From assembly GCA_019359035.1 (NCBI GenBank), contig JAHHIC010000035.1, positions 1-64,000 on the forward strand: 64,000 bases of DNA, in the 5' to 3' direction. Source of the DNA: Scytonematopsis contorta HA4267-MV1. Lineage in GTDB: Bacteria > Cyanobacteriota > Cyanobacteriia > Cyanobacteriales > Nostocaceae. Both the position numbers and the translations under genes were made by a program. Under the pieces are notes generated by a model. That model saw only the letters and a program-made list of their open reading frames with translations, was not told the origin of the DNA and searched no databases. Positions 30,497 to 42,902 of this stretch are shown piece by piece (position 1 is the stretch's first letter; every line of letters begins with the position of its first letter).

Positions 30497-31369
30497 CTAT
30501 GCAACTAAAGGAATGGGGGTCGGAATATTACCAACCCCCATTTCTTCTGCAATAATTCGTCCAACTGCTACTGCTATAGGTTTTAAACTATCTACCAATG
30601 TGACGATATCTTCTAAAGATAGTGCTTGTCTGGCATCAGATACCGACTGTTCTGGTTGCGGGTGACATTCAATAATCAAGCCGTCTGCACCACAAGCTAC
30701 GGCCGCTCTTGACATTGAGGCTACTAGTTCCCGCTTACCAACTGCATGAGATGGGTCTACAATCACTGGTAGATGGGTTATTTGCTTTAGTGCAGCCACT
30801 GCGGCTAAATCCAATACGTTGCGGGTGTAATTATCGAAGCTGCGGATACCTCGTTCGCACAACACAACATTTGGATTTCCATGACTTAAAATATATTCAG
30901 CAGCCATGACAAACTCTTCAATTGTTGCTGCTAAGCCACGTTTAAGTAATATTGGTTTACCTGCACTTCCTAATGCTTTCAACAAATCAAAGTTTTGCAT
31001 ATTGCGGCTACCTACTTGCAGCATATCAACATGCTCCGCTATGACTTCTATTTGAGAAATACACATTACCTCTGTGACGACTGGCATGTTGTAACGCTGT
31101 CGAACTTGTTTTAAAACTTTCAGTCCAATTTCTCCCGTTCCTTGGAAAGCGTAAGGTGAAGTTCTAGGTTTGTAGACTCCACCACGCAAGGCTTGTATGG
31201 GAGTTTTGTAAAGTTTTTTGGCTACCGTCTCCATTTGTTCGGCACTTTCCACCGCACAAGGACCAGCGATAATTACTAGCTCTTTGCCACCGAAGGCTAC
31301 TGTTTCAGAAATTTCAACGATTGTTTGATGATTTGCATGGGTTTGTCCGACTAGTTTGGCGTTTATCAT
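30497..31369 (-). CDS. aroF: 3-deoxy-7-phosphoheptulonate (DAHP) synthase
   Basis: A 290-residue class I-beta DAHP synthase (AroF/KDO8PS-like). Seen are IIAGPCAVES, LRGGVYKPRTSPYAFQG, QVGSRNMQNF, LLKRG and VDPSHAVGKRELV with active-site residues. It condenses phosphoenolpyruvate and erythrose 4-phosphate in the first step of aromatic amino acid synthesis. There is no fused ferredoxin-like or chorismate mutase regulatory domain, so allosteric control may be weak. The ATG follows AAAGGAGAATCGAACC. Upstream are two aromatic leader peptides with terminators, which should control expression by attenuation. Confidence 0.95.
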   Translation of the reverse strand: MINAKLVGQTHANHQTIVEISETVAFGGKELVIIAGPCAVESAEQMETVAKKLYKTPIQALRGGVYKPRTSPYAFQGTGEIGLKVLKQVRQRYNMPVVTEVMCISQIEVIAEHVDMLQVGSRNMQNFDLLKALGSAGKPILLKRGLAATIEEFVMAAEYILSHGNPNVVLCERGIRSFDNYTRNVLDLAAVAALKQITHLPVIVDPSHAVGKRELVASMSRAAVACGADGLIIECHPQPEQSVSDARQALSLEDIVTLVDSLKPIAVAVGRIIAEEMGVGNIPTPIPLVA

Positions 31370-31443: not shown

Positions 31444-31478
31444 AAAAAACCCGGAACTTTGTTTTTGAGTTCCGGGTT
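31444..31478 (-). terminator. attenuator B intrinsic terminator
   Basis: A perfect 11-bp stem (AACCCGGAACT with AGTTCCGGGTT), a 9-nt loop, then TTTTTTG on the minus strand. It lies 75 bp upstream of the aroF start codon. Confidence 0.88.
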
Positions 31479-31522
31479 CGTCAGTGTTGGTTTTTAGCCA
31501 TGACGGTATTTACCCAGAACTC
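31467..31522 (-). promoter_or_regulatory. attenuator B antiterminator
   Basis: The mRNA arm GAGTTCTGGGT (from 31522 to 31512, the last leader B codons plus the first stop base) pairs with ACCCGGAACTC (31477 to 31467): 11 bp with one G-U. The second arm covers 10 of the 11 bases of the terminator 5' arm, so the two structures exclude each other. Confidence 0.75.
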
Positions 31523-31575
31523 CCTTGGGACCACCAAAAGTAAAAACCATAAAACCAACTACTGAAATGTGTCAT
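31510..31575 (-). CDS. aromatic leader peptide B of the aroF attenuator
   Basis: A 21-codon frame, ATG to TAA. Nine of 21 residues are aromatic, with the run WFYGFYFWW at positions 7-15. It ends SQGSSG, where the last codons form the antiterminator arm. Its position just before an intrinsic terminator and a DAHP synthase gene fits ribosome-stalling attenuation sensing Phe, Tyr and Trp. The Shine-Dalgarno is weak. Confidence 0.8.
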   Translation of the reverse strand: MTHFSSWFYGFYFWWSQGSSG

Positions 31576-31600
31576 GACGATTAATTATCCGAATAACCTT

Positions 31601-31636
31601 AAAAAACAAAAACCGCAGAGTTTGCTCTCTGCGGTT
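31601..31636 (-). terminator. attenuator A intrinsic terminator
   Basis: A perfect 10-bp stem (AACCGCAGAG with CTCTGCGGTT), a 6-nt loop, then TTTGTTTTTT on the minus strand. Confidence 0.88.
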
Positions 31637-31684
31637 CACTGGGCGATTTCCAATCGGAAATTTGACTCACTCCCAGTGAACCGC
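31631..31684 (-). promoter_or_regulatory. attenuator A antiterminator
   Basis: The mRNA arm GCGGTTCACTGGG (31684 to 31672, the last codons of leader A) pairs perfectly with CCCAGTGAACCGC (31643 to 31631), 13 bp. The second arm takes up six bases of the terminator 5' arm. A ribosome at the leader stop codon would cover the first arm and free the terminator. Confidence 0.75.
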
Positions 31685-31726
31685 CTTAAACCAATAAAAA
31701 TAAAATTTGCTGCTTCTGCTAAACAT
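31667..31726 (-). CDS. aromatic leader peptide A of the aroF attenuator
   Basis: A 19-codon frame, ATG to TGA, with eight aromatic residues, including FYFYWF at positions 8-13 and a Trp near the end. AAGAG lies 9 bases upstream of the ATG. It stands before its own terminator and upstream of the second leader module, on the same strand as aroF. Confidence 0.78.
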   Translation of the reverse strand: MFSRSSKFYFYWFKAVHWE

Positions 31727-33298: not shown

Positions 33299-34426
33299 AT
33301 GAGCGAGCTGGAGCGTTATTATCGAGTTTTAGAATTGGAGCCAGGAGCGACACTTGAAGAAGTTAACCAGGCTTACAAAGATTTGGCTTTTATTTGGCAC
33401 CCAGACCGCATTCCCCTAGAGAATCAGCGATTACAGCAAAAAGCGCAAAGAAAGCTACAAGAAATAAACGAAGCTCGCGAAAAATTGCGCTCGCACAAAA
33501 CGAAGTTTACTAGACCCACGGTTAACGGGTCGTCTCAAACTAGAAAGCCAGCCCAAAAAAGTTATTATCAACCAAAGTCTTACTACACTTACACTCAGTC
33601 AGAATCCGATACCTACACTCAGTCAAAACATCGTAACGACACTGAACCTCAGCCTCAGCCAAATACTTATAGTCGGTCGCATTACGACTCTAGTTACACT
33701 TCACAAAAGTCTAACTCTAGTCATAATTCTTCAAAATCTGAGTCTAGCTATAGTCCACCAAAATCTGAGTCTAGCTATAGTCCACCAAAATCTGAGTCTA
33801 GCTATAGTCCACCAAAATCTGAGTCTAGCTATAGCCCACCAAAATCTGAGTCTAGCTATAGTCCACCAAAATCTGAGTCTAGCTATAGTCCACCAAAATC
33901 TGAGTCTAGCTATAGTCCACCAAAATCTGAGTCTAGCTATAGTCCATCAAAACCTGAGTCTAGCTATAGTCCATCAAAACCTGAGTCTAGCTATAGTCCA
34001 CCACAGTACGACTCCAGTTATACTTCGTCGAGTTCTAACACTTATACTCGACCACAGCAAAATTCGGACTTAAGCGGAAAAGACTTTAGTAATGCCAATT
34101 TTAAGGGCAAAGATTTATCCAGCCGAAATTTGAGTCACGCTAACTTAAGCGGTACTAATCTCAGCGATACTTTTATGCACAAAGCCAATCTTCAGGGTGC
34201 TAATTTGTCCGACGCTAATTTGTTTAGAGCAAATTTACTATTAGCCGACTTGAGAGAAGCTAATTTGCGTGGTGCTAATTTAATCGGAGCTGACCTGAGT
34301 GGTGCTGATTTACGCGGTGCTGACCTGACTGGTGCAAGAGTTCGTTCGGGCGATCGCCTTTTAGTAAAATTAGTGGGAGCGAAATTGAGTGGTGCGATTA
34401 TGCCCGATGGTACACTTTATGCCTAG
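33299..34426 (+). CDS. J-domain protein with nonapeptide repeats and pentapeptide repeats
   Basis: A 375-residue protein in three parts. The J domain (1-67) has an intact HPD in FIWHPDRI. The middle (about 80-255) is Ser/Tyr/Pro-rich and includes about ten near-identical nonapeptides (SESSYSPPK). The C-terminal pentapeptide repeats (about 258-370, A(N/D)LxxANL pattern) form a right-handed beta-helix. The nonapeptides are coded by 27-bp units almost identical at DNA level, so copy number probably varies by slippage. It probably recruits an Hsp70 to a site recognised by the beta-helix. A HIP1 site lies at 34350. Confidence 0.88.
   Translation: MSELERYYRVLELEPGATLEEVNQAYKDLAFIWHPDRIPLENQRLQQKAQRKLQEINEAREKLRSHKTKFTRPTVNGSSQTRKPAQKSYYQPKSYYTYTQSESDTYTQSKHRNDTEPQPQPNTYSRSHYDSSYTSQKSNSSHNSSKSESSYSPPKSESSYSPPKSESSYSPPKSESSYSPPKSESSYSPPKSESSYSPPKSESSYSPPKSESSYSPSKPESSYSPSKPESSYSPPQYDSSYTSSSSNTYTRPQQNSDLSGKDFSNANFKGKDLSSRNLSHANLSGTNLSDTFMHKANLQGANLSDANLFRANLLLADLREANLRGANLIGADLSGADLRGADLTGARVRSGDRLLVKLVGAKLSGAIMPDGTLYA
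33725..34005 (+). repeat. 27-bp coding minisatellite
   Basis: About ten units of TCTGAGTCTAGCTATAGTCC plus ACCAAAA, in frame within the J-domain gene. Confidence 0.9.
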
Positions 34427-40712: not shown

Positions 40713-42902
40713 CTATAAATAACTTTTAGCCCCTGCTCGCACAATACGATTTGCATCCTCAGCAAGACGTTGACGAATATGCACTGGAGTATTAGGATTT
40801 GTCGCAATCGCGTAACGTTCCAACCAAGACCATGAGCGAAAATACTTTACTAACACATCGCTTGGTGTTAACGGATGCAGCAATACAAAAAAGCCCGATA
40901 ATGAGGGACATGGATGTTGCCAGATATAATTATCTAAATCCAAAATATCGGATTCAGGGTATTGCTTTATCAAGGTTTTTACGGCAGCTAAATGTATAGG
41001 TTCATTACAAAAATTAGTATCAGCTAATTCTTCCAGAATATCAATTGGGGTATGAGGATTTTTGGCAACTGCGATTCTTACAGCTTGGTTTTTGTCAACT
41101 ATAAGTTTTTCAATCAGAGTAGCAGGAATGTTAGTTTTATCGTCTTTTTTTGCGGGTTTATCTAGCTGATAAATTATCATTGCCGCTTTCGGATGCTGAG
41201 CTACGGCTTCACGGATAAGTACCCACTTACTTTGTGCTAATTTTGCTAAGGTTTCGTCTGGGGTATTAACGTTTTGTGCCATATTCCATTGTTGCCAAAA
41301 ATTATTCAAATCTTTATCGCGACGAGCTAAAGGATTTTTTTGCAATGCTATTAGTACTGCTTGTCTAATTTTATAATTATTATTATTTAACAGTTTTTTT
41401 AACAAATTTATAGGTAAATTTTGATTTTGTGTTAGCAATTGACGTAGACGAGGTGAGCGACTTTTCATCAATTGTTCAAAAATTGATTCTGATATTTTGG
41501 GATGTCGCGCTAAAGCTGTTTGCAAATCAATACTGTGAGTCAAAGCGCAACGGTCAAGAAAAGTATCTGAAATATCTAAGTCAAGAGCAATTTTCTGGCA
41601 AAGGTGATTAATTATCTGTGGAGGTATATACTTATTTTTACTTCCCACAATATTTTGTAAATCGTCAAGATATAACTCGCATTTTTTTTCTAAATAAACA
41701 TAATCCGTTTGAATATCTTTTGTATTATTCAGCTTTCTTTTGAGAGTTTTACTTGATTCTTCTCTTACAGTTTTAATATTATCCTGTTGTAATATTGCTA
41801 ATATATCGTCAGAGATGTTGCTATTTTTGGCAACAGCAAGGCGCATTTTCCAAGACTTATTTGTTGCGAGTTTTAATAACACTTCTTTTGGGGTATTTGG
41901 GTGAGATGCAACACCTTTAGAAATATGCATCCACTCATTAGTTGGAATTCGCATCAGTTCTTCAGGGCTTGTATTAGTATTTCCAATTGCTCTTTCATAT
42001 TCTTGAAAGCGTTGAAAAATTACGTTAGGAGTATTAGGATTTAGAAATACATTCCGACGCACCCTTTTATTTTCATCACCCGCAAGTTCTTCTAAAAGAT
42101 GGACAGGTGTATTCAAATTACTGGCAATTGCAACACGAACTTTATTAATAGCTGCTCTGGGATTTTTCAACAGCGCTTGTAAAATATATCCAGGGGTTTC
42201 CGGATGTTGTGCAATTTTCGTAATGGTTTTAAAATCTAAGGTCGTCAAAAAAGACTCAGGTATGACACCAATTTGCCATAAAGAATATTCAGATAATTCT
42301 TTGTGTACAATTCTGTCTTTATACAGTTGACGCTTCTGCACTACTTCCAAGGCTGCTTCTTCCCATCCCCACTCCATTTCACCAGACCAATTTACATGAA
42401 GTTTCGCGACTTGTTGTATTTGCTCAGAATTCCAATGCCTTTGAAATTTATTGATTAATTTCTGCAAATCTTCTTTACTAACTTTTGGATTCATAGTTAT
42501 AAAAAATAAGATTTGCGGTTCGTTGCTGCTGTTAAGTACCCATTGCAAAAACGAATCAGGTATCGATGGCAATTTTATAAGATTCACGAGTGTGGCTTCG
42601 GGTATATCCTGCATGAAATTAGGATTTTCCAACAATAGTAAGGAAAATACCGGGTTATCAAGCAACTCTTGTGGAAATTCCTCTCCTAATTTAAATAAAA
42701 CATCCGTTGGTGTGTTTGGGTTAGCAGCAACAGCTTGACGTATTTGTTCATCTTCGCTCGTGCTTAATTCTTGCAGCAGTTCAGGTGATGTATTTTCGTT
42801 ATTAGCAATGACTGCTGCTAGCTCTGGACTTTTTTGCAGCAACTCATTCAACCGTTCTGGTGAAGTATTTGTGTTAGCTGCTTCTAATTCTGGTGTAAGC
42901 AT
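40713..42902 (-). CDS. LRV-repeat protein A1
   Basis: The largest LRV protein in the window (729 residues). It begins LTPELEAANTNTSPERLNEL, as does A2. It carries the module EEFPQELLDNPVFSLLLLENPNF at about 75-97, then LRV units interrupted by a Trp-rich helical segment (about 165-215) and a second LRV block to the C-terminus (ends HIRQRLAEDANRIVRAGAKS). There is no signal peptide. A1 and A2 are paralogues along their whole length; A1 has an extra section in the middle. Confidence 0.88.
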   Translation of the reverse strand: MLTPELEAANTNTSPERLNELLQKSPELAAVIANNENTSPELLQELSTSEDEQIRQAVAANPNTPTDVLFKLGEEFPQELLDNPVFSLLLLENPNFMQDIPEATLVNLIKLPSIPDSFLQWVLNSSNEPQILFFITMNPKVSKEDLQKLINKFQRHWNSEQIQQVAKLHVNWSGEMEWGWEEAALEVVQKRQLYKDRIVHKELSEYSLWQIGVIPESFLTTLDFKTITKIAQHPETPGYILQALLKNPRAAINKVRVAIASNLNTPVHLLEELAGDENKRVRRNVFLNPNTPNVIFQRFQEYERAIGNTNTSPEELMRIPTNEWMHISKGVASHPNTPKEVLLKLATNKSWKMRLAVAKNSNISDDILAILQQDNIKTVREESSKTLKRKLNNTKDIQTDYVYLEKKCELYLDDLQNIVGSKNKYIPPQIINHLCQKIALDLDISDTFLDRCALTHSIDLQTALARHPKISESIFEQLMKSRSPRLRQLLTQNQNLPINLLKKLLNNNNYKIRQAVLIALQKNPLARRDKDLNNFWQQWNMAQNVNTPDETLAKLAQSKWVLIREAVAQHPKAAMIIYQLDKPAKKDDKTNIPATLIEKLIVDKNQAVRIAVAKNPHTPIDILEELADTNFCNEPIHLAAVKTLIKQYPESDILDLDNYIWQHPCPSLSGFFVLLHPLTPSDVLVKYFRSWSWLERYAIATNPNTPVHIRQRLAEDANRIVRAGAKSYL

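Follow-up and report, generated by a model that had tools for sequence, protein, structure and literature searches.

The DAHP synthase locus and its leader region

The window, a stretch of 64,000 nt from the cyanobacterium Scytonematopsis contorta HA4267-MV1, carries on its minus strand an aroF-like gene encoding a type I-beta DAHP synthase of 290 amino acids; the gene is preceded by two short open reading frames, leader A and leader B, each associated with an intrinsic terminator (Table 1). The enzyme scores 366 bits with TIGR01361 and matches PRK08673 over profile positions 70-335 only, both above cut-off, in addition to a PF00793 match. It aligns nearly end to end with 1vs1 and 1zco, and with 1rzm only from residue 70; it thus lacks an N-terminal regulatory domain of the T. 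maritima type. Two full-length DAHP synthase paralogues from the genome of the window (363 and 351 aa) possess an N-terminal extension, and no such leader was found upstream of either; a third paralogue begins at a contig end and cannot be judged. It is conceivable that attenuation substitutes for allostery in the 290-residue isozyme, an idea that is inferred and not shown. A 12-bp terminator-like hairpin (30512-30542, minus strand) overlaps the final codons of the DAHP synthase gene, which suggests that the transcript is monocistronic and terminates at the stop codon. Elsewhere in the window, positions 33299-34426 of the plus strand encode a J-domain and pentapeptide-repeat-like protein whose middle part holds some ten tandem units of the SSYSPPKSE type.

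Table 1. Features of the aroF locus in the window, in order of transcription
Feature	Position	Strand	Description and basis
Promoter-like site, TTGACG-17-TACCCT	-35 31853-31848; -10 31830-31825	minus	8/12 consensus positions; read from sequence
Leader A, MFSRSSKFYFYWFKAVHWE	31726-31667	minus	19 codons; orthologous peptide at all 77 Nostocales loci and at most of the others
b(A), GCGGTTCACTGGG	31672-31684	minus	antiterminator 5' arm within the final leader A codons; 13-bp ungapped helix
Small conserved hairpin, ATTTCC-GATT-GGAAAT	31646-31661	minus	between leader A stop and b'(A); alignment
b'(A)	31631-31643	minus	shared segment; partner is b(A) or, via AACCGC, the terminator A 3' arm
Intrinsic terminator A	31599-31637	minus	stem 31637-31610 plus T-rich tail; terminator scanner
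Putative helix P1	31484-31583	minus	leader B start-codon region with segment after leader B stop; alignment
Leader B, MTHFSSWFYGFYFWWSQGSSG	31575-31510	minus	21 codons; recurs in orthologous loci
b(B)	31512-31522	minus	antiterminator 5' arm in the final leader B codons; 11-bp helix, one G-U; covariation
b'(B)	31467-31477	minus	shared segment, equal to terminator B 5' arm; alignment, covariation
Intrinsic terminator B, AACCCGGAAC ... GTTCCGGGTT	31478-31444	minus	stem 31478-31448, 10 bp; T run 31449-31444
DAHP synthase, aroF-like, type I-beta	31369-30497	minus	290 aa, no N-terminal regulatory domain; TIGR01361, PRK08673, PF00793

In both units the final leader codons contain a segment b able to pair with a downstream segment b', which is shared with the terminator. 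These pairings can be read directly, and a helix search recovers them at 13 and 11 bp. Folded against dinucleotide shuffles, module A (128 nt) reaches a z-score of -4.5 and module B (136 nt) one of -5.1, and terminators A (with its tail, -18.3 kcal/mol) and B (-18.2 kcal/mol) each have a z-score of -4.2 against shuffles. The loop of terminator B exceeds the limit of 8 set in the terminator scanner, but the hairpin folds at the energy just given; in the Nostocales alignment 94.5% of its cells are paired. The small hairpin between the leader A stop and b'(A) is paired in 99.5% of cells of that alignment, with a single double change. Short frames in which 6 of 9 residues are aromatic number only four in the 64 kb, both strands included, and two of them are leaders A and B. 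Given the fold z-scores, the rarity of such frames and the recurrence in Nostocales, the two modules are not a product of chance. The remaining two frames end near 41741 (plus strand) and 39096 (minus strand). Leader A lacks a clear Shine-Dalgarno sequence, a point against the attenuation model discussed below, and a scan of the region with Rfam release 15 returned nothing near gathering score, only sub-threshold chance matches.

The start-codon region of leader B may engage in a further helix, P1, in which 74% of alignment cells are paired. Its own partner surpasses shuffled ones in 77/77 Nostocales loci, and the signal is weak in other loci; P1 is no more than a possibility, with moderate support restricted to this lineage. 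An equivalent start-region helix in leader A was tested and is unsupported. The sequence-only reading that preceded this analysis had proposed two leader frames of 19 and 21 codons, their terminators and b:b' pairings of 13 and 11 bp, all upstream of the DAHP synthase gene aroF; these claims held, with coordinates exact to the base.

Distribution of the tandem leaders

Protein search yielded 80 orthologous loci of named Nostocales, 76 of which had sufficient upstream DNA and, together with the window, form a set of 77. Both leaders and both terminators are present in 77/77. Covariance models of module A (R1) and module B (R2), built on the leaders only and free of DAHP synthase coding sequence, were then used to scan 292 genomes of the phylum, of which 30 match R1 and 27 match R2. 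An orthologue of the DAHP synthase occurs in 29 of these genomes; R1 is found at the locus in 28 of the 29 (not in G143) and R2 in 27 (not in G116 and G174). Among the 263 genomes without the orthologue only G030 and G057 match R1. The G057 match is marginal (E 0.014) and is treated as spurious because neither leader nor DAHP synthase lies nearby. The match in G030 (reverse strand of L092, about 1520-1880) is a relic: a deletion has removed module B and the start of the gene, so that leader A with its antiterminator stem now continues into the interior of a DAHP synthase pseudogene that is truncated and damaged. The leader decays along with the gene. Across the 292 genomes the R1 and R2 searches never placed a unit away from a DAHP synthase gene. 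In the genome of the window itself, covariance model search returned a single R1 match and no second module B, the next-best R2 matches having E values of 3.4 and 5.1.

A further set, drawn from other families of the class, comprises the regions upstream of 80 orthologues. An automated scan detected at least one aromatic leader with a terminator in 80/80 and at least two in 66/80; relaxed inspection added seven tandems and left four regions with A only (all of family f46), two with B only and one on a contig too short to judge. Altogether 175 orthologous upstream regions could be assessed, a total that includes the Nostocales set, the other-family regions that could be judged, 18 other distant loci and L145, and that represents 17 families of the class by GTDB-level family labels. 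Both units are present in 167 of them, A alone in five (L099, L213 and L218-L220, all but the first belonging to f46) and B alone in three (L145, L208 and L217). The tandem arrangement is ancient and spans a cyanobacterial class.

Conservation of the leader peptides

The Nostocales consensus approximates MxxxNSYFYFWFRVVHRE for leader A and MTYFSSWFYGFYFWPRxSSG for leader B. In the leader frame, aromatic residues make up 0.74 of the core in A and 0.84 in B, vs 0.31/0.16 and 0.35/0.19 in the other two frames, and Phe, Tyr and Trp are all represented in 143/146 distinct A peptides and 136/142 distinct B peptides. In-frame indels and exchanges between Phe and Tyr or from Trp to Tyr preserve the aromatic character. 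The final codons of leader A drift (VHR, VHL, VRP, AHP and others), accompanied by compensating changes in b', and the aromatic core is held as amino acids. In Nostocales, leader B shows the order WFYGFYFWP with hardly any variation, the proline after the aromatic run included. Between families the aromatic residues are reshuffled (WFFGFYFW, YWFFSFFFF, WQFTFYFF, FYGFYFFW), and what persists is their density alone; the proline is missing from leader B of the window (FWWSQ) and from many distant loci.

As to codon choice, leader Phe is nearly always encoded by TTT (398 TTT vs 27 TTC in A, 443 vs 44 in B), in G+C-richer genomes as well, and both TAT and TAC are used freely for Tyr. The TTT preference might reflect slow decoding or merely a general codon bias.

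Covariation of the alternative stems

Some base pairs, A pairs 0-6 and B pairs 0-4, served to find the modules, and only the outer pairs are therefore counted as a test of covariation; the shuffle controls ignore shared ancestry. Within Nostocales alone the stems vary little, yet antiterminators A and B show double changes above shuffles; terminator A is nearly invariant there and, having barely any variation, carries no covariation. Over 83 distinct modules, b(A):b'(A) displays compensatory changes. With all loci included, the covariation becomes strong: A pair 7 is paired in 92% vs 71% when shuffled, A pair 8 in 82% vs 43%, with all six standard pair types occurring, and B pair 6 in 86% vs 69%.

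The changes extend to the third segment, c, with which b' pairs in the terminator. In module A, the b' change A to G is always accompanied by T to C in c, while pairing with b is kept by U-G or C-G (18/18 cells); in module B, C to T in b' is accompanied by G to A in c (3/3). Such a double constraint on b' is the signature expected of one segment with two alternative partners.

Geometry of the switch

Folding was computed with a model ribosome whose A site was set on each leader codon in turn, the RNA past its leading edge being allowed to fold; the edge was assumed to lie 12 nt beyond the first nucleotide of that codon. For leader A the antiterminator forms co-transcriptionally with a probability of 1.00 for stalls through the last Phe or Tyr before Trp; at Trp the value drops to 0.76, and over the final five codons it is 0. 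For leader B the values are 0.96-0.99 for stalls from W7 to W14, 0.69 at the following codon and 0 in the last four. Both aromatic runs thus end at the masking edge, where the antiterminator probability falls. Once the ribosome has reached the last codons or the stop, b is masked, and the probabilities are 1.00 for the terminator and 0 for the antiterminator in both units. In leader A the Trp codon and the last Phe codon lie at or just past this edge, so that this leader may sense mainly Phe and Tyr. In Nostocales module B without a ribosome, the model predicts a median terminator probability of 1.00; the putative P1 helix would make termination the default in the absence of translation.

At full-length equilibrium with a stalled ribosome, the terminator often wins: its median probability is 0.73-0.81 over the core of A and 0.63-0.89 over the core aromatics of B, and in unit B of the window it is near 1.0 except at F13 and W14. 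The switch would therefore need co-transcriptional kinetics. A kinetic decision is usual for attenuators.

A single promoter upstream of both units

The promoter-like site of the window lies 127 nt before leader A and scores below the threshold of the automatic scan. Over the 77 loci, a conserved TTGAC-type (sigma70-type) promoter is found 71-90 nt before leader A in 72, vs 4.7 in shuffles. In these loci no promoter was found in the interval separating the two leaders, nor between leader B and the gene; in the latter interval promoter-like sites fall below shuffle expectation. With the sole conserved promoter before leader A and none between or after the leaders, the two attenuators are arranged in series on one transcript. 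The transcript probably starts upstream of leader A, a conclusion that rests on comparison alone, no start site having been measured.

Proposed mechanism and alternatives

The aroF leader very likely contains two transcription attenuators of the classical ribosome-mediated type, placed in series along a single transcript and sensing all three aromatic amino acids, although no expression data are available. Four defining features of such an attenuator are present: codons for pathway products in the leader, an intrinsic terminator between leader and gene, an exclusive antiterminator masked at the stop codon and a promoter-like site upstream. The anatomy, conservation, covariation, single upstream promoter and geometry are shown; translation of the leaders, stalling, read-through (including its rise under aromatic limitation) and the series logic are inferred, there being no RNA-seq, Ribo-seq or reporter data, and the sensing of Phe, Tyr and Trp by each leader is inferred from its codons. 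In the proposed mechanism, the polymerase would transcribe a short leader frame rich in Phe, Tyr and Trp codons. With ample charged aromatic tRNAs, a ribosome at the stop codon would cover b, b' would pair with c and the intrinsic terminator would form. Should any aromatic tRNA become scarce, the ribosome would stall on the aromatic run, leaving b free to capture b' before c is made and allowing read-through. Polymerase would have to pass A and then B, and the two decisions would therefore multiply. The product under control would be an isoform of DAHP synthase that has no allosteric domain; this enzyme is the entry point of aromatic synthesis.

Several functional claims of the sequence-only reading can be weighed here. 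That a ribosome at the stop lets the terminator form and an earlier stall frees the arm is supported in the folding model, with the kinetic qualification given above. The proposal of a two-step sensor of the three aromatic amino acids is supported comparatively, sensing being inferred from codons and A perhaps responding mainly to Phe and Tyr. The reading had looked to an alignment of Nostocales for conserved leader peptides and covarying stems, and both were found, in its favour; the Nostocales scope was too narrow, as the system spans the class. It would have been refuted by an aroF transcript starting downstream of the leaders, and the absence of any conserved promoter downstream of leader A again speaks in its favour, on comparative grounds and without RNA data.

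A bolder reading, which is possible and no more, holds that A and B form a non-redundant serial logic gate with different inputs and defaults. Unit A would be prone to read-through without translation and would sense mainly Phe and Tyr, since its Trp codon sits at the masking edge; unit B, in Nostocales, would by default terminate without translation, P1 lying over its own start codon, and would sense Trp by two codons. Given these inputs and defaults, aroF would be expressed only in cells that are actively translating while short of aromatic tRNAs, and the transcriptional gate, if real, would replace the missing allosteric domain of the 290-residue isozyme.

Other explanations have been considered. 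The leaders could act by nascent-peptide arrest, in which the ribosome would respond to a specific peptide sequence within its exit tunnel, possibly with one of the free amino acids Trp, Phe or Tyr serving as ligand as in TnaC, and not to uncharged tRNA. The near-invariant leader B of Nostocales, proline included, argues for it; however, the order and identity of the aromatic residues vary between families, so that the invariant-residue criterion of TnaC-type arrest is not met, the proline is dispensed with in the window and in many distant loci, and stalling at high supply would have the wrong sign for a biosynthetic gene. This explanation is thus very improbable. Equally remote is the notion that the units are short RNAs or small peptides ended by terminators and acting in trans, with aroF expressed from a downstream promoter. 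Freed attenuator RNAs and leader peptides can indeed work in trans, as does peTrpL (PMC7298713), but the leader B-gene interval of the 77 loci is devoid of any promoter-like excess, the units never occur away from the DAHP synthase gene and selection maintains the b:b' helix together with the terminator.

The tandem might also consist of one regulatory unit and a decaying duplicate, as the few lineages with A only or B only could suggest. This is hardly tenable, since nearly all assessable loci retain A and B with their stems intact, and each of the two covaries and has kept its aromatic character.

Relation to known attenuators

The E. coli trp and pheA leaders (trpL and pheL) are controlled by ribosome-mediated transcription attenuation. 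The cyanobacterial system resembles them in its leader frame of regulated amino acids, its alternative b/b'/c helices, its intrinsic terminator and its biosynthetic target; it differs in having two full units in series, leaders with all three aromatics and DAHP synthase as target, and in lacking a clear 1:2 helix, save a possible one in Nostocales unit B. In Corynebacterium glutamicum, the Phe-Tyr-Phe peptide of the aroR leader upstream of aroF attenuates a DAHP synthase gene, with a reported response to Phe limitation and not to Tyr (PMC11802643, PMC4046766). In comparison with the cyanobacterial tandem, aroR is a single unit of another phylum, without Trp in the run and with no sequence relationship noted. 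The uORFC-13-1 motif upstream of Acholeplasma aroF is a candidate uORF with Phe codons before a terminator (PMC8632094); unlike the tandem, it is a single unit with no Tyr/Trp run described and is known from 24 representatives in Acholeplasma and environmental sequences. Two leader peptides, ermBL and ermBL2, do precede ermB (PMC8274638), but they mediate erythromycin-induced translational attenuation and are not amino-acid-sensing terminators.

For cyanobacteria, a 2016 study found no reliable data for leader-peptide attenuation (PMC4833913). No report of a serial pair of amino-acid-sensing leader-peptide terminators was found in the literature searched, which was open-access only; within the same limits, the earlier statement that no tandem version was known on a cyanobacterial DAHP synthase gene also met with no contrary report. 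Attenuation of this kind is classical; what is likely to be new is the tandem architecture, together with the mixed Phe/Tyr/Trp leaders and the class-wide occurrence in cyanobacteria.

Serial attenuation at aroF represents a well-supported case, class-wide in cyanobacteria, on the gene through which aromatic synthesis is entered. Tight coupling of transcription and translation at the aroF locus is implied, and the leaders may provide a ready reporter of aromatic tRNA charging as well as, for metabolic engineers, a defined element to remove for higher shikimate flux. Lineages that naturally carry A alone or B alone allow a direct test of what the tandem is for.
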